A stretch of DNA of 64,000 nucleotides, taken from positions 124,001-188,000 of the forward strand of contig JACPDN010000002.1 of the NCBI GenBank assembly GCA_016183985.1, read 5' to 3'. The position numbers and the translations under genes were made by a program. Below the pieces are notes generated by a model. The model saw only the letters and a list, made by a program, of their open reading frames with translations, was not told where the DNA came from and did not search any database. Source of the stretch: Pseudomonadota bacterium (GTDB taxonomy: Bacteria > Pseudomonadota > Alphaproteobacteria > Dongiales > Dongiaceae). This document shows, piece after piece, positions 8,846-63,777 of the stretch (within the stretch, counting starts at the first letter, position 1; every line of letters starts with the position of its first letter).

Positions 8846-9577
8846 GTGGTTTTATTCGATCAGGTCTCGGTGCAGTACGACACCGGGCCGCAGATCCTCA
8901 AGGATATCAGCTTTACCCTGGCGCCAGGCTCGTTCCATTTCCTGGTCGGGCGCTCCGGCGCCGGCAAATCGTCGCTGCTGAAGCTGATGTATCTGGGGCT
9001 GCGTCCCAGTTCCGGCGTGGTCAATCTCTTTGGCCGCGATGTCGCCACGCTGAGCCGTGCCGACTTTCCGGCCATCCGGCGCCGGGTGGGCGTGGTGTTC
9101 CAGGATTTCCGCCTGATCGAGCATTTGTCGGCCCTCGACAATGTCGCCTTGCCCTTGCGTGTCGCCGGCGTGCGCGAAGCCGACATCCGGCGCCATTGCA
9201 GCGAGCTTCTGAGCTGGGTGGGCCTCGCCGATCATCTCAATGCGCTGCCGGCGACTTTGTCGGGCGGGCAGCAGCAGCGCGTTGCCATCGCCCGCGCCGT
9301 CATCGCCCGGCCCAATCTGCTGCTGGCCGACGAACCCACGGGCAATGTCGATGACGTGATTGGCCTCAGGCTCATGTATCTCTTCGAAGAGCTCAACAAG
9401 CTGGGGACCACGGTCGTCGTCGCGACCCATAACGATGCGCTGGTCAGCCGCTTCACGCACCGCCAATTGCGCCTGGAGCAAAGCAGCGTGCGCGTTTTCG
9501 ATCCGGCGGGCGTTGCCATGGGCCAGAATAATGTCGGGGGTAGTGTCGGCGGCAATTTCGGCGCGGGAGTGGCCTGA
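8846..9577 (+). CDS. ftsE: cell division ABC transporter ATPase FtsE
   Basis: FtsE is the cytoplasmic ATPase that, with FtsX, transmits cytokinesis signals to periplasmic peptidoglycan hydrolases. It has 243 residues, with Walker A Gly35-Arg-Ser-Gly-Ala-Gly-Lys41-Ser, the ABC signature Leu-Ser-Gly-Gly-Gln-Gln-Gln-Arg and Walker B Leu-Leu-Leu-Ala-Asp-Glu-Pro-Thr-Gly-Asn. The last 20 residues are Gly/Val/Asn-rich and look unstructured, which is longer than the usual FtsE tail. The GTG at 8846 gives the family N-terminus (Val-Leu-Phe-Asp-Gln-Val-Ser). The TGA overlaps the ATG of ftsX. Confidence 0.95.
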   Translation: MVLFDQVSVQYDTGPQILKDISFTLAPGSFHFLVGRSGAGKSSLLKLMYLGLRPSSGVVNLFGRDVATLSRADFPAIRRRVGVVFQDFRLIEHLSALDNVALPLRVAGVREADIRRHCSELLSWVGLADHLNALPATLSGGQQQRVAIARAVIARPNLLLADEPTGNVDDVIGLRLMYLFEELNKLGTTVVVATHNDALVSRFTHRQLRLEQSSVRVFDPAGVAMGQNNVGGSVGGNFGAGVA

Positions 9578-10494
9578 TGCTGGGCTTGCGCACGGATCTG
9601 CCGCTCGACCGCGACGCTGCGGCAAGGTTTCTGCCCTGGATTCTTGGCTTCATGGTCTATCTGGCGGCACTCGCCGTGGGCAGTGCCTTGGTGGTCGATC
9701 GCCTGTCGGATCACTGGCAGAGCGGCCTGACCGGTAACCTCACCGTCGAGGTGCCGTTCACCGACGATATCGGCGTCACCGAGCGCTCTGAAATCCTCGA
9801 CAAGGTCATCGACCTCCTCAGTGCTACGCCGGGCGTTGCCGGGACAACGTTGCTCGACGACCGGGAGATCGCGCATCTGCTGGAGCCGTGGCTCGGGCCG
9901 GAGGCAAGCGAGCTCGACATTCCGCTCCCCGCCATGATCGCCGTCACCTTGCGCGAGAGTGCGGCTCTTGATCAGGAACAGCTGCAGCGCGACCTCACCG
10001 CCATCCAGCCCGGCGCCAAGGTCGACACGCATGCGGACTGGATCGCCGATGCCCTCGATTTCCTGCGCGGGTTGAAGCTGCTTGCGGCCCTGCTGACCGG
10101 CGTGGTCTTGACGGCGACCGCGCTCACCATCGTCTTCGTGACGCGGACCGGCCTGTCCATTCATCGCAGCGTGATCGAGATCGTGCATTTGATCGGCGCA
10201 CCCGATGCCTATATCGCCGGCCAATTCCAGGCCCAGTCTCTGCGTCTGGGGCTGCTGGGCGGCATCGTCGGTACTCTGCTGGCAGCCGGCACCATCGTCG
10301 GCGCCGATTGGCTGCTGCAATCGGCCGGTTCATTGGGCGGCGAATCCGAGATCGGCATGGCTGACCTTGCCCTCGATCTGCAGCTCTTGCCCTGGCAATG
10401 GGGTATCCTGGCTCTGCTGCCCGTCGCCACGGCAATTATCGCCATGATGACAGCACGCTGGACCGTTTTGCGCTCGCTGGCGCGCTTCATCTGA
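9577..10494 (+). CDS. ftsX: cell division protein FtsX
   Basis: This is a 305-residue permease-like partner of FtsE. The four-segment FtsX topology is visible: TM1 at about 20-40, a periplasmic domain of about 120 residues, TM2 near 168-190, TM3 near 222-245 and TM4 near 275-295. The start overlaps the ftsE stop (TGATG), so translation is likely coupled. A periplasmic stretch with Asp-Asp-Arg-Glu-Ile-Ala and Leu-Glu-Pro-Trp-Leu-Gly fits the alphaproteobacterial FtsX subgroup. It would form an FtsE2X2 complex in the inner membrane. Confidence 0.92.
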   Translation: MLGLRTDLPLDRDAAARFLPWILGFMVYLAALAVGSALVVDRLSDHWQSGLTGNLTVEVPFTDDIGVTERSEILDKVIDLLSATPGVAGTTLLDDREIAHLLEPWLGPEASELDIPLPAMIAVTLRESAALDQEQLQRDLTAIQPGAKVDTHADWIADALDFLRGLKLLAALLTGVVLTATALTIVFVTRTGLSIHRSVIEIVHLIGAPDAYIAGQFQAQSLRLGLLGGIVGTLLAAGTIVGADWLLQSAGSLGGESEIGMADLALDLQLLPWQWGILALLPVATAIIAMMTARWTVLRSLARFI

Positions 10495-10515
10495 ACCTGC
10501 TAGATAAGGCCCGCC

Positions 10516-11325
10516 ATGGGGGTGAACCGCATCAATTTCCGCGATCCGCAAGCACAGCGTGAAGGGCTGGGGCGCAAGCTCATCCACCTTTTACTGCTGG
10601 CGGCGTTTCTGTGGCTGGTCGGTTTCATGGGCTTCATCGGCTTCATCCCGCGCGAGGTGCGCGACGCCACGACCAAGACTGATGCCATCGTCGTCCTCAC
10701 GGGCGGCGGCGATCGTTTGGCGGAAGGCTTCCGGCAGCTCGATGCCGGCCTATCCCCGCGCATGCTGATTACCGGCGTTGCGCAAGGTGTTTCGCTGCAA
10801 CAGGTCATCGACGGCATGAGCAGCGACAAGAGCGTGGTGCCGTCACCCGAAAACCTCGCCTGCTGCGTCACACTGGGTTACGAGGCTGGCAACACGGTCG
10901 GCAACGCAGCCGAAGCGGCGATCTGGGTGCGCGACAACAAGATCGCCTCCATCCGCCTCGTCACCGCCAATTATCACATGAAGCGCAGCCAGCTCGAATT
11001 CCATCGCGCGCTGCCTGGTATCACCATCATCCCGCATCCGGTCTTTCCCCGGGAAGTGCAGGACAATTGGTGGTTCGTGAAGCCGCGCATTCTCATTCTG
11101 CTGGCTGGCGAGTACCACAAGTTTGTCGGTGCCTGGAGCCGCGGTGTGCTGCAGGATTGCAAGCTCTGGCTTGGTGGCGATCACATGACGCCGGATTGGT
11201 GGCCCGATTGGGCGAATTTCGACTGGGTAAACTTCGACTGGGCAAACTTCGACTGGCCGGATATGCATCTGCCGGATTGGAAATGGCCTGACTGGCTGCC
11301 CAGGCCTTGGTCGAGCAATCCATGA
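10516..11325 (+). CDS. YdcF-like (DUF218) membrane protein with a Trp/Asp repeat tail
   Basis: This is a 269-residue protein. TM1 spans about 22-45, followed by the DUF218 domain with Asp56-Ala-Ile-Val-Val-Leu-Thr-Gly-Gly, the Asn-Thr-x-Gly-Asn motif at 126-130 and Thr-Ala-Asn-Tyr-His-Met-Lys-Arg at 150-157. These are the family's conserved residues. DUF218 proteins (YdcF, ElyC, SanA) act in cell-envelope metabolism. The oddity is the C-terminus: residues 227-265 contain ten Trp and eight Asp, including three tandem (Ala/Val)-Asn-Phe-Asp-Trp pentapeptides encoded by a 15-nt repeat at 11212-11256. The stop overlaps the start of the acyltransferase gene (ATGA). The neighbours suggest an envelope role. 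Confidence 0.88.
   Translation: MGVNRINFRDPQAQREGLGRKLIHLLLLAAFLWLVGFMGFIGFIPREVRDATTKTDAIVVLTGGGDRLAEGFRQLDAGLSPRMLITGVAQGVSLQQVIDGMSSDKSVVPSPENLACCVTLGYEAGNTVGNAAEAAIWVRDNKIASIRLVTANYHMKRSQLEFHRALPGITIIPHPVFPREVQDNWWFVKPRILILLAGEYHKFVGAWSRGVLQDCKLWLGGDHMTPDWWPDWANFDWVNFDWANFDWPDMHLPDWKWPDWLPRPWSSNP
11212..11256 (+). repeat. three tandem 15-nt units inside the ydcF-like gene
   Basis: Three in-frame units of GCGAATTTCGACTGG type (second GTAAACTTCGACTGG, third GCAAACTTCGACTGG) encode (Ala/Val)-Asn-Phe-Asp-Trp. They differ at only one to three bases, so the repeat is recent or homogenised. Flanking codons (Pro-Asp-Trp) extend the amino-acid pattern with less DNA identity. Confidence 0.85.
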
Positions 11326-12029
11326 CAGCTTTCCGCGCCCTCGCCTTCAATGTCCTCTATCTGCTGTGGACGACGGCGATGCACATCATCTGCCTGCCGC
11401 TTCTGGCAGCGCCGGCACCCGCGATCCTCGCTGCGGCGCGTTTCTGGATCGGCGGATCGCTCTGGCTGCTGAAGGTCTGCGTCGGCCTCAAGGCGCGTGA
11501 GGTCGGCACCGAGAACCTGCCCCACCAGCCGGTGCTTTTTGCCGTCAAACATCAATCGGCGTGGGAGACGCTCTATCTCTCGAAGCGTCTCAATAACCCC
11601 GCTTTCATCCTGAAGAAGGAATTGCTGCTGATCCCGGTCTTCGGCTGGTTCCTGGCCCGCAGCGGCATGATCGCCATCGATCGCAGCGGCAAGGCGGCGG
11701 CTCTCAAAAAGATGGTGGCCGATGCCAAGGCGACCTTCGCCAAGGGGCGCCCGGTCGTGATCTTCCCGGAAGGCACGCGCGTTGCCCCCGGCGCCAGCAA
11801 ACCCTATCAACCCGGCATCGCGGCGCTCTACGCGCAGCTCGGTGTGCCGGTCGTCCCGGTGGCGCTCAATTCCGGCATCTTCTGGGGCCGCAAGGCTGTG
11901 CTGAAGAAGCCGGGCACGATCACCATCGAATATCTCCCCGCCATCCAGCCGGGCCTCGACCGCAAGACCTTCATGCGCGAGCTGGAAGCGCGGATCGAAA
12001 CCGCGTCGAAGCGGCTCGCCCAAGGCTAA
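11322..12029 (+). CDS. plsC: 1-acyl-sn-glycerol-3-phosphate acyltransferase (PlsC family)
   Basis: This 235-residue membrane acyltransferase probably converts lysophosphatidate to phosphatidate. An N-terminal hydrophobic stretch (about 7-55) is followed by the PlsC domain with the donor motif at His77-Gln-Ser-Ala-Trp-Glu82 and the phosphate-binding motif Phe-Pro148-Glu-Gly-Thr-Arg152. The classical motif is His-X4-Asp; here the acidic residue is Glu82, a conservative change that could affect catalysis. The ATG at 11322 overlaps the stop of the ydcF-like gene. It ends the ftsE-ftsX-ydcF-plsC unit and converges on the solute-binding lipoprotein gene. Confidence 0.9.
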   Translation: MTAFRALAFNVLYLLWTTAMHIICLPLLAAPAPAILAAARFWIGGSLWLLKVCVGLKAREVGTENLPHQPVLFAVKHQSAWETLYLSKRLNNPAFILKKELLLIPVFGWFLARSGMIAIDRSGKAAALKKMVADAKATFAKGRPVVIFPEGTRVAPGASKPYQPGIAALYAQLGVPVVPVALNSGIFWGRKAVLKKPGTITIEYLPAIQPGLDRKTFMRELEARIETASKRLAQG

Positions 12030-21041: not shown

Positions 21042-21108
21042 AGGGCCCGGTTACAGAAACGCCTGCGGAGAATCCCAGTCGGCGCGGCGGCATGCTAAGG
21101 TGCCCGGC

Positions 21109-21765
21109 ATGACAGCCGCGCCGACCGAACCATTGCAGATTCCGGCCATCCTTCTCGCTGGCGGAAAGGCCTCCCGTATGGGCGGCGGCGACAAATGCCT
21201 GCGCCTGCTGGCGGGCCGGCCGCTTCTCAATCACGTCATTCAGCGCCTGAAACCCCAGGTGCGCGAGATGGTGATCAATGCCAATGGCGATTTCAGCCGA
21301 TTTGCCAAATTCGGCCTCGCCGTCGTGCCGGACGAAGTCGGCGGTCAGCCCGGCCCGCTCGCCGGCATTCTCGCCGGCCTCGATTGGGCGGCGGTCCAAA
21401 GGCCGGGGCTTGAATGCATCTTAAGCGTTTCGACGGACTGCCCCTTCTTGCCGCTCGATCTCGTGGCACGGCTGAAAGAGGCATTGCAAGGTGGCGCCCA
21501 GATCGCCATCGCCGCCAGCAATGGCCGGCCCCATCCCGTGATCGGCTTGTGGCGGGTTGCCCTGCGCAAGGATCTGCGCCGGGCGCTGGGCCTGGAAAAT
21601 CTGCGCAAAGTCGAGGCCTTCTGTGACCGCCATCGCACCAAGACGGTAAACTTCCCTGGCGTCGTGAACCTTCCAGGCGGCGCCGCCGACCCTTTCTTCA
21701 ATGCCAACACACCCGAAGATATGGCGCTGGCCGAGAGCCTCCTTAAAGCGCCGATCGGCGGGTGA
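21109..21765 (+). CDS. mobA: molybdenum cofactor guanylyltransferase
   Basis: MobA transfers GMP from GTP to molybdopterin to make the guanine dinucleotide cofactor. It has 218 residues. The nucleotide-binding motif Leu-Ala-Gly-Gly-Lys-Ala-Ser-Arg-Met-Gly-Gly-Gly-Asp-Lys near 18-31 is complete, and the second motif Val-Ser-Thr-Asp-Cys-Pro-Phe-Leu-Pro near 105-113 carries the metal-binding aspartate. The ATG at 21109 has AGG 8 nt upstream; a GTG at 21100 is less likely. No other molybdenum-cofactor gene is in the window. Confidence 0.93.
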   Translation: MTAAPTEPLQIPAILLAGGKASRMGGGDKCLRLLAGRPLLNHVIQRLKPQVREMVINANGDFSRFAKFGLAVVPDEVGGQPGPLAGILAGLDWAAVQRPGLECILSVSTDCPFLPLDLVARLKEALQGGAQIAIAASNGRPHPVIGLWRVALRKDLRRALGLENLRKVEAFCDRHRTKTVNFPGVVNLPGGAADPFFNANTPEDMALAESLLKAPIGG

Positions 21766-21776
21766 CTTTCGTCATC

Positions 21777-21846
21777 GCCCCAGGGAAATTGCCACAGGGA
21801 AATCGCCCCAGGGAAATCGCCTCGGGGAAATCGCCACAGGGAAGAC
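21777..21846 (+). repeat. five tandem 14-nt units before a secreted-protein gene
   Basis: Five consecutive 14-nt units of the form GCCACAGGGAAATC (variants GCCCC, GCCTCG; the last ends GAAGAC) run from just after mobA to 6 nt before the GTG start at 21853. Each unit contains AGGGA or GGGGA, a Shine-Dalgarno-like core. The last copy is positioned to act as the ribosome-binding site. Copy-number change would alter the leader and the number of potential ribosome-binding sites. Confidence 0.85.
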
Positions 21847-21852
21847 GCCATC

Positions 21853-23238
21853 GTGATCCATATCCTCGCCATCTCCGCTCATCGCCCGCGCCAGCTTCTT
21901 GCCGGTACGACCTTCGCTCTCATCGCGCTGGCCGCGCCACACCTGGCGCGTGCCGAGGAACTGACAGCGGCGGAAAAGAAGATCATCTGCGCCGACCGGC
22001 CGACCTGCCAGGTGACGCAGGTGACTGCCGCCGGCAAAGGCGCCAAGGGCGAGAAGCTTCGCGTCGCCGATCTGGTTTTCGGCCTTGCCGACATCCCGGA
22101 CTATTTCCCGCAGGAAGGCTGCCACTCCACCGAGGAATCGCTCGAGAATATGGACAAGGTGGATGGCGGGCGCGAGATATGGCTGCTGGCAGATGATGCA
22201 AGACCTGTGAAGCTGCTGCCGCTCTGCAATGACGGCTATGGCTCGGCGATGATGGGTTATGACGACATCGAGATCGGCGACAACCGTCTCACGCATACGC
22301 AGTCGGGCGGATCGGCCTGGCGCTGGGACACGGCAACAACCTTTCAACTATCGCCACTCGCCCTCGTCGGTGAAAGCAATTGCTCCTATCACAACGCGGC
22401 ACCTGAGACCGGTGAGTTGACGGTGGTCGACCGCCGCACACTGGAAGCGCGCGCCTATGCGCCGGCGCCGCGCAAGGATTGGTCGGAAGCGGAGATCGGC
22501 TGCCCGGTCGTGACCCCCGATTTCGCCAAGCCGCTCGACCCGCAGCCCGAGGCCGATGTCGTGGCGGGCTATGCCGTGCCGATGCCTTTCGATGTCGATC
22601 CGTCGCCGCTTCCGGAAGGAACGACGCTCGGTACTTGCGGCCTGGTCGTGAGAAGCGATGGCAGCAAAGGTTTCCTGATCTATGGCAAAGCTGCGGCCAC
22701 AAGCGACGCCGCCGAAATGCGGGTCATCGCCGAGACCGGCAAGTCGCTTCTCATTCAGGTCCGCGATCCGCTGGCGGTAGCCGCGATGAAGGCCGGCGCT
22801 GGTGCTTCCTGGATCAAGCAGCCCCATGTCGAAATCTGGACGGCTGCCGAAGGCGCGCTACCGGAGAGTGATTCCGAACAGGTGCCGGAGAAGCAGTATT
22901 TCCAGCACGGCATCGGCCTTGATGGCAGTGTCAATGTCGGCGCTGGCAAGCCTGCGGCCCTGCCCAAGGTCGTGAGCTGGCAGGCCAAGGACGAAGAAGG
23001 CCGCGATATCACCGTCCTGCGCGTCTCGTGGGAAGACGAAGCGGCCCTGATCTACGGCCTCGGCGTGGTCTATTCGCAGGCTGAAGGCGGCAAGCAGGTG
23101 CGTCTCGTTGCCACGGCGCCTATCAAAAAGAACAAGCCCCTGTACTTGCCCGGCATCTGGCACAACAGCCAGGATGAATCCGGCGCGCCCGGCGGTGCCT
23201 GCGAGTTCTCAGGCGACAGCCATCAGCTCGATCTCTAA
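21853..23238 (+). CDS. unrecognised secreted protein, 461 residues
   Basis: I do not recognise the family. The GTG at 21853 gives a long signal peptide (about 1-34, hydrophobic core Leu-Ala-Gly-Thr-Thr-Phe-Ala-Leu-Ile-Ala-Leu-Ala, ending Ala-Arg-Ala). The mature protein is acidic and beta-rich, with scattered cysteines (two near 46-52, others near 91, 126, 181, 220, 258 and 448) that could form disulfides. It repeatedly has the look of a periplasmic beta-sandwich (Trp-Arg-Trp-Asp-Thr-Ala-Thr, Val-Val-Ser-Trp-Gln-Ala-Lys). There is no catalytic motif. The 14-nt tandem repeat forms its leader. It could be cotranscribed with mobA (87-bp gap), but the two need not be related in function. Confidence 0.82.
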   Translation: MIHILAISAHRPRQLLAGTTFALIALAAPHLARAEELTAAEKKIICADRPTCQVTQVTAAGKGAKGEKLRVADLVFGLADIPDYFPQEGCHSTEESLENMDKVDGGREIWLLADDARPVKLLPLCNDGYGSAMMGYDDIEIGDNRLTHTQSGGSAWRWDTATTFQLSPLALVGESNCSYHNAAPETGELTVVDRRTLEARAYAPAPRKDWSEAEIGCPVVTPDFAKPLDPQPEADVVAGYAVPMPFDVDPSPLPEGTTLGTCGLVVRSDGSKGFLIYGKAAATSDAAEMRVIAETGKSLLIQVRDPLAVAAMKAGAGASWIKQPHVEIWTAAEGALPESDSEQVPEKQYFQHGIGLDGSVNVGAGKPAALPKVVSWQAKDEEGRDITVLRVSWEDEAALIYGLGVVYSQAEGGKQVRLVATAPIKKNKPLYLPGIWHNSQDESGAPGGACEFSGDSHQLDL

Positions 23239-60415: not shown

Positions 60416-63394
60416 CTAACGCGTGTTACCTGTGAGGACACGCTCGGGTGGAAAGATCATGATCACGCGCGTGCCGGCACCCGGTGCGCTGGTGATCTCG
60501 AGCCGCCCGCCATGCATGTGCATGAGCCGCCGGCTGATGGCAAGACCCAGGCCCACACCGCCATAGCGGCGCGACAAGCTCGATTCACCTTGCGCGAACG
60601 GCTTGCCGAGCTGCGGCAGCAATTTGGGGTCGATGCCCTTGCCGGTGTCGGAGACGGCGACGAGCAATCCGGCATCCGGATCATTGGTGGCCGTGACGGT
60701 GACGCGGCCGTTTCGCGGGGTGAATTTCAGCGCGTTCGACAGCAGATTGCCCAGCACCTGCTTGAAGGCGCGTTCCTCGCCGAGGAGGTCCGGCAGGGGC
60801 CCGGTCTCATCGATCGACAGCGCGATTCCGTCGCGCTGTGCCTGGGCGGTGAAATGACGCGTGCAATCCTGGATCGCCGCCCCGACATCGAAGGGGAATT
60901 CCTGCAGATAGCGATCGCCGCTTTCGATGCGCGACATTTCCAAGAGGTCGCCGATGATCTCCAGCAGATGCCGCCCGCTGCTCCTGATGGCGTCGATGCT
61001 TTCGGCATAAGTCGCCGGGATCGGCCCCATGATCTGCTGCGCCAGCACGTCGGAAAAGCCGATGACGGCGTTCAAGGGCGTGCGCAATTCGTGGCTCATA
61101 TTGGCGAGGAACTCGGTCTTCGCCCGGTCGGCCATTTCGGCGCGGATGCGCGCCTGGTTGAGTGCCTGTTCGCGCGCCTGGAGATCGGTGATATCGAGGA
61201 TGATGCCCTCGAGGCGCACCAGCTTGCCGTCGCTGTCGAGCTGCGCTTCGCCTTGCTGCCGCACGACCCGGATGCGGCCATCGGCCAGCACGATGCGGTG
61301 CTCGACATGGAAAGGTGCCGGCTTGGCGACGGTCCGCTCCATGTCCTGCAGCAGGCGCAGCCGGTCATCCGGATGGACGAAGCTCAGCATCATATCGACG
61401 GTAAAGGGCGCGCTGCCGGGTTCCACGCCGAAGATGCGATAGACTTCGTCCGAGCAGGCGACTTCGCCGGTTGCAACGACACGGCTCCAATTGCCGACAT
61501 GGGCGATGCGCTGGGCGTTGGCGAGGCTCTGATGGGCGCGCCGCAGGCCGGCTTCGGCATTCTTGCGCTCGCTGATGTCCTGGATGACGCCGAAGGCACC
61601 GACGATGCGACCCTTATCGTCCTTGATGTGTTCGGCAAGCGAGCGCAGCCAGATCTCGCCGTCATCGGGTCGGCGCAGGCGGTAATCGAGATCGTAGCTG
61701 GAGCGGCGGCCGTCGCGCAGTTCGGCAATGGCGCGCATCAGGCGCAGGCGATCGTCGGGATGCGGAAAGCGATGCTCGAACGTGCCGTCCAGCATGGCGC
61801 TCTCGGCACTGTCGCTGTCGATGCCGGTGATGGTGGCTGCTTCTTTCGACCAGATGGCGCTTCTGATGCCGCCCGTCGCCTCGTCGATAAGCCAGGACCA
61901 ATAGCCAAGCCGCGCCAGATGATGGGCCGCTTCCAGCTGGTACTCCTTGTCGCGCAAGGCAAGCTCGCCGCGGCGGATATCGGTGATGTCGAGAATGAGG
62001 CCAGTCGCATGCAGCGCGTTGCCGGCGGTATCGCGTTCGCGCACGGCAACGGAACGCAGGATCCGCTCGCCGCGCGTGGGATGCAGATAGGCGTATTCCA
62101 GCGTGTATTGATCGACGCCGCCGCTGCGGAAGCGCTGCATCGCGGCCATCACGCGCCCGCGGTCGGTTTCATGCACATAGCGCTGGCAGAATTGCTCGGT
62201 GTCGATCGCCTGCATTTCCGCTTCGCTGATGCCGCTCACGGCCTCGGCCTCCGGCGAATAATGATAGCGGCTGGGCGGCAAGTCGGGCGATCGCAACGCG
62301 AAGCCGGATTCATCCCAGAACCAGTAACCGATCCCCGCCAATTTATGGGCGGCGGTCAGGATGGCTTGGACCTGAAGCGCCGCAAGATCGGCGCGGCGCA
62401 GCTCGGTCAAGTCTTGAACGATGCCGGTCAGTTCGGCGATCCGGCCATTCGCATCGCGCAGCTTTTCTGAAATCACGCGAATATGGCGATAGTCGCCATT
62501 GGCGCGGCGGATGCGATAATCCTGCGACAGCTGGTTGCCGGCGCCGCGCAGGAAGTCATGATAGACCTGCATCGAGGCGTCGCGGTCCTCGGGGTGAATC
62601 AAGGCCGCATAGCTGTCGTCATCGCCGCGATTGAGCGTTTCCAGCGGGACTTCGAAAATCTCGGCCGCCTCGGCGCCATAGATATAGTGCCCCTCGCCAT
62701 CGTCGGCGATGTAATGGCCGATCTCACGCCGCGGCAGCCAGCTCCAATGTGCGAGCTTTGCAATGCGATGCGCGCGCTGCAAGGCAAGGGAGGTGCGCTC
62801 CGACCGGGATTCCGACCGATGGAGATCCGTGATGTCGAGACCGGCGGCGACCACCGCCTTCAGCTTGCCGTTTGGATCGCGGATATCTGAACAGGTCCAG
62901 CGCAGCAGGCGCCGCTCGCCGGTCTTGGTGATCCAATGGTTCTGGTTGACCCGCGGGAAGGGCGCGTCGCTATGGGCGTCGATGGCGCGGGCGACCGAGG
63001 CGCGCTCTTCCGCCGGCACGAATTTGCGCCACAGCTGCGGATTGGCAAGCTCTGCCATCGAATAGCCGGAAAGCTCGGCACAGGCGCGGTTATAGCGGAT
63101 GAGGCGGCCATGCGGGTCCGTGACGACCAGCAGCGTCGGCGCCTGATCGATCACGGCGTCGGCGAGGATCCGCGACGTGACGTCGGCGGCACTCGGCCGG
63201 GTCCGGCGCCGCTGCGACAGCGCGGCAACGCCGCCCGCCACGGCGACCGCGGCGATGCCGATGGCGCTCGCCGCATTCAACTCGGCACGCCATTCCAGCC
63301 AGCCCAGGCTAGCGAGCGCAGTGCCGGCCAGCAGAACCAGGCCGGCGGTTGCCGCGATGCCGGAGCCTTGTCCCCTCTCAAGCCCCGGCTCCAT
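60416..63394 (-). CDS. orphan multi-PAS sensor histidine kinase
   Basis: This is a 992-residue kinase. Two TM segments (about 13-35 and 42-60) precede roughly five PAS/PAC units (about 80-200, 215-345, 350-490, 495-620 and 625-745), several with the PAC ending Gly-x-x-x-Asp-Ile-Thr-Asp-Leu/Ile. The HisKA domain has His768 (Asn-Met-Ser-His-Glu-Leu-Arg-Thr-Pro-Leu-Asn-Ala-Val-Ile-Gly-Phe) and the HATPase_c domain has Asp-Thr-Gly-Lys-Gly-Ile-Asp and Gly-Gly-Val-Gly-Leu-Gly-Leu-Ala-Ile. No response regulator is adjacent and there is no receiver domain. The ATG at 63394 is preferred; a TTG at 63430 would start within the tandem repeat that encodes the leader. The PAS series suggests sensing redox, light or small ligands. 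Confidence 0.92.
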   Translation of the reverse strand: MEPGLERGQGSGIAATAGLVLLAGTALASLGWLEWRAELNAASAIGIAAVAVAGGVAALSQRRRTRPSAADVTSRILADAVIDQAPTLLVVTDPHGRLIRYNRACAELSGYSMAELANPQLWRKFVPAEERASVARAIDAHSDAPFPRVNQNHWITKTGERRLLRWTCSDIRDPNGKLKAVVAAGLDITDLHRSESRSERTSLALQRAHRIAKLAHWSWLPRREIGHYIADDGEGHYIYGAEAAEIFEVPLETLNRGDDDSYAALIHPEDRDASMQVYHDFLRGAGNQLSQDYRIRRANGDYRHIRVISEKLRDANGRIAELTGIVQDLTELRRADLAALQVQAILTAAHKLAGIGYWFWDESGFALRSPDLPPSRYHYSPEAEAVSGISEAEMQAIDTEQFCQRYVHETDRGRVMAAMQRFRSGGVDQYTLEYAYLHPTRGERILRSVAVRERDTAGNALHATGLILDITDIRRGELALRDKEYQLEAAHHLARLGYWSWLIDEATGGIRSAIWSKEAATITGIDSDSAESAMLDGTFEHRFPHPDDRLRLMRAIAELRDGRRSSYDLDYRLRRPDDGEIWLRSLAEHIKDDKGRIVGAFGVIQDISERKNAEAGLRRAHQSLANAQRIAHVGNWSRVVATGEVACSDEVYRIFGVEPGSAPFTVDMMLSFVHPDDRLRLLQDMERTVAKPAPFHVEHRIVLADGRIRVVRQQGEAQLDSDGKLVRLEGIILDITDLQAREQALNQARIRAEMADRAKTEFLANMSHELRTPLNAVIGFSDVLAQQIMGPIPATYAESIDAIRSSGRHLLEIIGDLLEMSRIESGDRYLQEFPFDVGAAIQDCTRHFTAQAQRDGIALSIDETGPLPDLLGEERAFKQVLGNLLSNALKFTPRNGRVTVTATNDPDAGLLVAVSDTGKGIDPKLLPQLGKPFAQGESSLSRRYGGVGLGLAISRRLMHMHGGRLEITSAPGAGTRVIMIFPPERVLTGNTR

Positions 63395-63431
63395 CAAAAC
63401 CCCGACTCCGTCAAACCTCGGCTCCGTCAAA
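63383..63431 (-). repeat. three tandem 16-17-nt units at the start of the PAS kinase gene
   Basis: On the minus strand three units of the form TTTGACGGAGCCGAGG repeat: two copies of 16 nt (63400-63415 and 63416-63431) and one of 17 nt (63383-63399, with an extra T). They surround the candidate starts: one unit yields the TTG at 63430 and another the ATG at 63394. A change in copy number would move or create start codons. Confidence 0.75.
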
Positions 63432-63777
63432 CCAATGTCGTGGCAAGGCCGCGCCCCTTAGCAGAACTTCGTCATCGATCCGTTTGAGTGAGGGGCGTGG
63501 TCCGGCAGCCCCCGGTCCACACCCCCCTTAAAGCCCGTGACTCATCCACGGGCTGTAACACCCGTTACGACTCATTACCTAATCCCTAACACGAAAAGTA
63601 TCATCTTAACTTTCTGTTAACCAACACAAACATTCAGCAAGCGCACACTATTTATAAAGAATTCGTGGATTCTATGGATTTGCTGGCGCTGTCATTGGCC
63701 GGAAATAGCCATAAACGGGCAGAAAGCGATCACGCCCTGCATTATGCGATATAATTTATATCAATAGGTTAAGCGCG
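63395..63777. other. AT-rich intergenic region with candidate regulatory elements
   Basis: This 380-bp region lies upstream of the multi-PAS kinase gene and downstream of the gene at the right edge. Apart from the tandem repeat at 63383-63431, it holds a hairpin at 63532-63554 (AGCCCGTG / CACGGGCT, 7-nt loop) and a CtrA-like site at 63606-63620. The part from 63570 to 63770 is distinctly AT-rich for this window, as expected of a promoter. No gene is supported. Confidence 0.6.
63606..63620. promoter_or_regulatory. candidate CtrA site upstream of the PAS kinase
   Basis: TTAA-CTTTCTG-TTAA, followed by CC, matches the CtrA consensus TTAA-N7-TTAA exactly. It lies 212-226 bp before the kinase ATG in an AT-rich stretch. 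Confidence 0.45.

Follow-up and report, generated by a model that had tools for sequence, protein, structure and literature searches.

Why should a DUF218 protein end in a dense run of tryptophan and aspartate residues? Proteins of the DUF218 family regulate cell-envelope synthesis in ways that are poorly understood, and the one considered here is encoded in a 64,000-nucleotide stretch of DNA (the window) from a 4.65-Mb genome of the genus Dongia (G000). The gene lies on the forward strand (10516 to 11325), as do all the features located below, and starts with an ATG; its product is a protein of 269 amino acids with an N-terminal hydrophobic helix. The match to Pfam family PF02698 scores 42.3 bits against a cut-off of 27.6, placing its DUF218 membership above the curated threshold, and covers residues 56-179 (10681 to 11052). 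The predicted N-terminal helix (residues 11-42; 10546 to 10641) is read as an inner-membrane anchor from the AlphaFold2 model together with the hydrophobic stretch and basic N-terminus seen in the sequence. From these features we infer that the DUF218 domain is anchored by this one membrane helix.

The preliminary description of this DNA had called the protein YdcF-like, a label that fits only loosely as the window protein has an N-terminal hydrophobic helix whereas Escherichia coli YdcF is predicted to be cytosolic (PMC12176290). A Foldseek search ranked E. coli YdcF (3ca8_A), a DUF218 protein of solved structure, second, with an E-value of 4.9e-4, a probability of 1.00 and a TM-score of only 0.42, slightly below argininosuccinate synthase (2nz2), and a PDB sequence search with the window protein found no DUF218 entry. 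PMC12176290 reports that T125, H149 and E182 of SanA are needed for its function. In our alignment, with SanA numbering counted by eye on L195, T125 and H149 pair with T127 and H154 of the window protein, both of which are invariant in ten sequences. E199, which lies in an EYHK motif (codon at 11110 to 11112) and is also invariant in the 10-sequence alignment, is the probable counterpart of SanA E182, a match made by eye in which the automatic alignment does not pair the two residues. If the match is right, the tail comes after the helix bearing this catalytic-site residue.

The tail itself comprises residues 222-269 (11179 to 11322). Ten Trp and eight Asp had been claimed within 39 of its residues (227-265), and a direct count gave the same numbers; of the nucleotide span given for them, 11197-11310, the end is right and the start is one codon late, as these residues correspond to 11194-11310. 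The three units said to come from a 15-nt tandem repeat are likewise present (11212 to 11256), reading ANFDW at 11212-11226, VNFDW at 11227-11241 and ANFDW at 11242-11256, and Tandem Repeats Finder reported a 15-nt period with 3.5 copies and 86% matches over 11205-11256. Further along, the sequence WPDWL (residues 257-261; 11284 to 11298) lies at or near the C-terminus. When the residues of the protein were shuffled 20,000 times, 5 shuffles reached ten Trp in 39 residues, a conservative test because much of the protein's Trp is supplied by the tail itself. The window contains 399 six-frame stop-to-stop frames that are 80 codons or longer, and this one, with 10, has the most Trp per 39 residues; the next has 7.

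The gene is part of a conserved block. An FtsE-like ABC ATPase gene (8846 to 9577; PF00005) comes first and is followed by an FtsX-like permease gene (9577 to 10494), directly upstream of the DUF218 gene, whose PF02687 match of 21.4 bits is below the cut-off of 25.5 and whose position is conserved. On the other side is a plsC-like acyltransferase gene (11322 to 12029; PF01553), the ATG of which overlaps the TGA of the tail in the sequence ATGA. This overlap is found in six of the seven genus members. We also observed that FtsE has a Gly/Asn-rich end (9521-9574; GQNNVGGSVGGNFGAGVA) adjoining the ftsX start. An FtsX relative was found upstream on the same strand at 63 of 64 loci and a PlsC relative downstream at 62 of 64, in a set in which at least four loci are second copies of the same place and G003 is not included. 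The presence of these neighbours at nearly all loci checked indicates that the ftsE-ftsX-DUF218-plsC block (8846-12029) is old in the class. A search for literature naming these genes together found no title on the block, and the block is itself a lead to the function of this DUF218 group.

Our comparison of homologs covered seven Dongia genomes (G000-G006, Dongia mobilis among them), ten other genomes of the family and 123 other relatives from the Alphaproteobacteria, which represent the better-scoring part of the class, were drawn from the best matches of 321 class genomes and include 7 loci that may duplicate genomes already in the set. There were 52 matched genomes, with G024 and G047 left out of the sequences compared. 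The Trp count began 20 residues after the first residue of the EYxK motif, which was found by pattern in 140 of 141 loci; the uncounted locus (L093) ends in EYGKWVVAYMIK, without a tail. The gene was matched in all 17 family genomes at one place each, in G003 split across two contig ends. A Trp-rich tail with 3-10 Trp is present in 7 of 7 genus genomes. By the same count, all ten of the other family genomes have no Trp there, as do 119 of the 123 other relatives, and the remaining 4 have one each. The preliminary description had stated that family members end without such a tail, which is true of the relatives compared outside the genus (none of the 10 and none of the 123 has more than one Trp) and false within it. 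Absence from every close relative, the outcome that it had named as damaging, is accordingly not what the genus presents, and the homolog comparison that it proposed found a Trp-rich tail across the genus with a repeat number that differs between species. The tails of the other six members end in PDWWPDWAKFDWPDMHLPNLHLPDWKWPDWLPRPWSTNP (G006), GDWSLGDWSLGDWSLGDWSWPELSWPDWLPKLP (G002), GDWSLPEMELPDFSWPDWLKLP (G003), SEWSWFDFSDFELPEFSWPDWL (G001), FTGWSLPDWVADWSGWFGTQDE (G005) and RWSSGWSVPWPTW (G004), the last being a short Trp-rich end without acidic residues that may be the same tail. The tail is genus-specific in the genomes sampled, and it was added late to a protein that is itself old.

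Five of the seven genus tails (G000, G006, G002, G003 and G001) have a degenerate pentad in common, [PGF]-[DE]-[WFML]-x-[LW]. The count of acidic and bulky residues at a lag of five was reached in none of 5000 shuffles for G000, G006 and G002, in 6 for G003 and in 2 for G001, the counts in G000 and G002 being inflated by the tandem duplication itself. Pentad periodicity is absent in G005, where 3334 of 5000 shuffles reached the observed count. The five pentad tails, which share ancestry and are not independent samples, were cut by hand into 30 units, 4-8 units per tail; position 2 is D in 25 of these, E in 4 and N in 1, and position 3 is W in 21, F in 4, M in 3 and L in 2. The tandem DNA arrays consist of different units, of the NFDW type in G000 and of the GDWSL type in G002, and GDWSL is found as a single copy in G003 and not at all in G001, with the five-residue rhythm kept in both. 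[SK]WPDWL is present in five genus tails and [WL]P[DT]W in all seven; neither G004 nor G005 has WPDWL in its tail. A tree of FtsX, the body of the DUF218 protein and PlsC unites all genus species except G004 in a clade of six with a support of 100, and the branching of G004 and G012 is poorly resolved (support of 54 and 74). Given this clade, the pentad tail would most simply have arisen in the ancestor of the six species and later been partly lost or remodelled in G005.

We also searched for similar tails and repeats elsewhere. Searching the 17 family genomes with the window tail recovered the tail of this gene in four of them (G000, G006, G001 and G003), and all other matches were weak (best E-value of 0.054, in G005); the search was not sensitive, as it missed the gene's tails in G002, G005 and G004. 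A DNA pattern for DWxxxDWxxxDW was found in 35 of 385 class genomes, including five of the seven genus genomes, and three of the genus matches lie outside the DUF218 gene. That in G000 (C13) is not convincing as a second tail, its frame starting at the repeat and being 85 codons long, and nor is that in G002 (C25), in which a stop falls inside the repeat. In G005 (C3), the repeat is in a 618-codon frame that overlaps a 487-codon frame, read in another frame, that resembles a transporter; this one may be a second tail but is not a convincing one. Among the pattern matches outside the genus, the one examined was in G031 (L200; G031:C6:333500-336500), where a long array of 15-nt GACTGGTCGTCACCC-like units has a DW frame of only 34 codons. 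A plasmid search gave 21 records, each of which covered less than 80% of the query. Other repeats in the window include five 14-nt direct repeats at 21774-21843 (consensus ATCGCCACAGGGAA), just past an ORF at 21100-21765 that is MobA-like by eye and before a 461-aa ORF at 21853-23238; with up to 3 mismatches allowed, the rest of the genome has no match to their two-unit pattern. A 16-nt tandem repeat with 3.4 copies (TCAAACCCCGGCTCCG) is located at 63378-63433.

AlphaFold2 predicted the DUF218 domain confidently in both the window protein and the G002 protein (L031), with pLDDT below 50 at residues 221-269 of the former and at 223-250 and 253-257 of the latter, low values that could partly reflect input alignments of 10 rows, three of them from the genus. 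No strands were predicted in the tail of either model. The tail is predicted to be disordered, and its location is probably periplasmic.

What, then, might such a tail do? The reading that we tentatively put forward as a possibility is that of a genus-specific multivalent docking tail which would keep the DUF218 domain at its site of action. The principal short linear motif would be WPDWL, with the pentads upstream serving as weaker copies of it that add avidity. Placed in the periplasm after the last helix of the membrane-anchored DUF218 domain, WPDWL and the pentads would tether this domain to a partner at the place where it takes part in envelope synthesis; the likeliest such partner would be a periplasmic protein in which basic residues border an apolar groove. 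We prefer docking because the acidic position is near-invariant, position 3 tolerates Met or Leu and the end motif is kept in five of seven tails; as five of the 30 units have M or L at position 3, we infer that an apolar pocket would fit better than sugar stacking. Counting against docking are G005, which is without periodicity, and G004, which is without acidic residues, both of them also without WPDWL. With these two tails deviating, Trp-richness may count for more than any particular motif, and a membrane or a glycan would then be the likelier target.

It would seem distinctly unlikely that the tail is non-adaptive, having grown in 15-nt units by slipped-strand expansion in a permissive C-terminus and having no function of its own. 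Unit number and sequence do vary by species, G004 and G005 do deviate, and beyond the closest pair the constraint on the tail is weaker than that on the body: tail dN/dS is 0.32 on 29 codons for G002-G003 (0.27 for the available part of the body), 0.35 for G000-G001 (body 0.23) and 0.68 on 23 codons for G001-G005 (body 0.17), and pN/pS is 0.51 for the G000-G002 tail, with tail alignment uncertain in the more distant pairs. However, tail dN/dS in the closest pair, G000-G006, is 0.09 on 46 codons (body 0.12), and the three full GDWSL units of G002 have diverged by synonymous changes only (6 synonymous and 0 nonsynonymous; P ~0.00015 against a random synonymous fraction of 0.23), alongside 2 synonymous and 2 nonsynonymous changes in the array of G000 (P ~0.10). 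Also against a lack of function, G001 and G003 keep the pentad rhythm without a tandem of near-identical units, and WPDWL is retained in most of the genus (5 of 7). At least in part, purifying selection acts on the amino acids of the tail, as the closest pair and the array of one species show, and the tail is very probably translated and selected as protein. It presents a tandem array whose protein pattern is apparently kept by selection while its units turn over. Very little probability attaches to an element acting at the level of DNA or RNA, in which the repeats or Trp codons would regulate the overlapping plsC through a Trp-codon attenuator or an RNA structure. The TGA/ATG overlap and the presence of 10 Trp codons just upstream of plsC are consistent with it, but the RNA folding z-score is -0.47, with 60 of 200 shuffles folding at least as well, and no terminator-like or promoter-like site was found in 10900-11700. 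Further, F, M or L replace Trp in relatives, and G000 and G002 keep the protein pattern although their repeat DNA is different.

The two remaining explanations give the tail a target other than a protein. In one, which we regard as somewhat doubtful, the tail is a membrane-interface anchor whose pentad Trp and Leu would enter the inner membrane at its outer face, or the outer membrane at its inner face, with the Asp facing water and either binding cations or protonated, so that the DUF218 domain would be drawn near a lipid-linked substrate. Interfacial sums using Wimley-White values are favourable for G000 (-6.6 kcal/mol), G006 (-3.7), G002 (-4.7), G005 (-6.7), G004 (-5.1) and G001 (-1.9), and five tails from two other family genera sum to +2.2 to +4.3 kcal/mol. 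In addition, the hydrophobic moment at 144 degrees of the five pentad tails was reached by at most 1.4% of 2000 shuffles. However, the G003 tail sums to +1.6 kcal/mol, and a range of -6.6 to +1.6 kcal/mol among pentad tails means that membrane insertion is not favoured in every species. The five pentad tails also carry a net charge of -3 to -6, which anionic lipids would repel, and all but one of the 30 units have D or E at the acidic position. The other explanation, which we consider doubtful, is a glycan-binding tail in which the spaced aromatic and acidic residues would stack on and hydrogen-bond to peptidoglycan or another periplasmic glycan, keeping the domain on the wall polymer. According to PMC10219597, the regularly spaced Trp/acid-rich regions of ESV1 and LESV suffice for starch-granule localisation, and the DUF218 protein SanA acts on periplasmic peptidoglycan synthesis (PMC12176290). 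Yet the ESV1 and LESV regions form a long, confidently predicted beta sheet whereas the Dongia tail is short and predicted to be disordered, and M and L, which occupy position 3 in one sixth of the units (5 of 30), are poor sugar stackers.

We return to the docking tail as the preferred reading, and as selection seems to preserve the amino acids of the units, it is probably a working one. Any binding target of the tail would be a candidate for the partner or the substrate site of the block's DUF218 protein. A bolder proposal, which we consider unlikely as a whole, is that a disordered, fast-evolving acid-aromatic pentad array ending in or near WPDWL constitutes a new kind of periplasmic tethering module, in which growth and shrinkage by 15 nt would tune the regulator's reach and its avidity for a partner or the glycan wall, with a single origin at or near the base of Dongia. 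No Trp/Asp tail on a DUF218 protein was apparent in the titles and abstract openings of the papers listed, and as far as these show the tail has not been described before.

Pentapeptide-repeat proteins have the consensus A(D/N)LXX and a beta-helix fold. The Dongia tail shares their five-residue period, its ANF and VNF resemble their motif and it has D/N before the central hydrophobic residue, but it differs in having only 4-8 units, Trp as the central residue, Pro at the small-residue place and no predicted strand. We rejected this identity for the tail, since two tails had no Pfam match at E-values up to 10, no strands were predicted and pLDDT was mostly below 50; a search of the tail against PDB sequences likewise gave no match at E-values up to 10. 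The plant starch proteins ESV1 and LESV are like the Dongia tail in their dense and regular aromatic and acidic residues (PMC10219597), but they are plastid proteins with a large 16-strand beta sheet, and a region of their type, an antiparallel beta sheet with aromatic strips, was rejected for the tail as no strands were predicted in it. The E. coli proteins SanA and ElyC have the same Pfam domain, PF02698, as the window protein, and SanA, ElyC and YgjQ, which are predicted to be anchored in the inner membrane, have an N-terminal hydrophobic helix as the window protein does. SanA is only 16% identical to the window protein in the alignment and, like the relatives compared outside the genus, has no Trp-rich tail. 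Unlike SanA and ElyC, the window protein is encoded by a gene that sits between ftsX and plsC.
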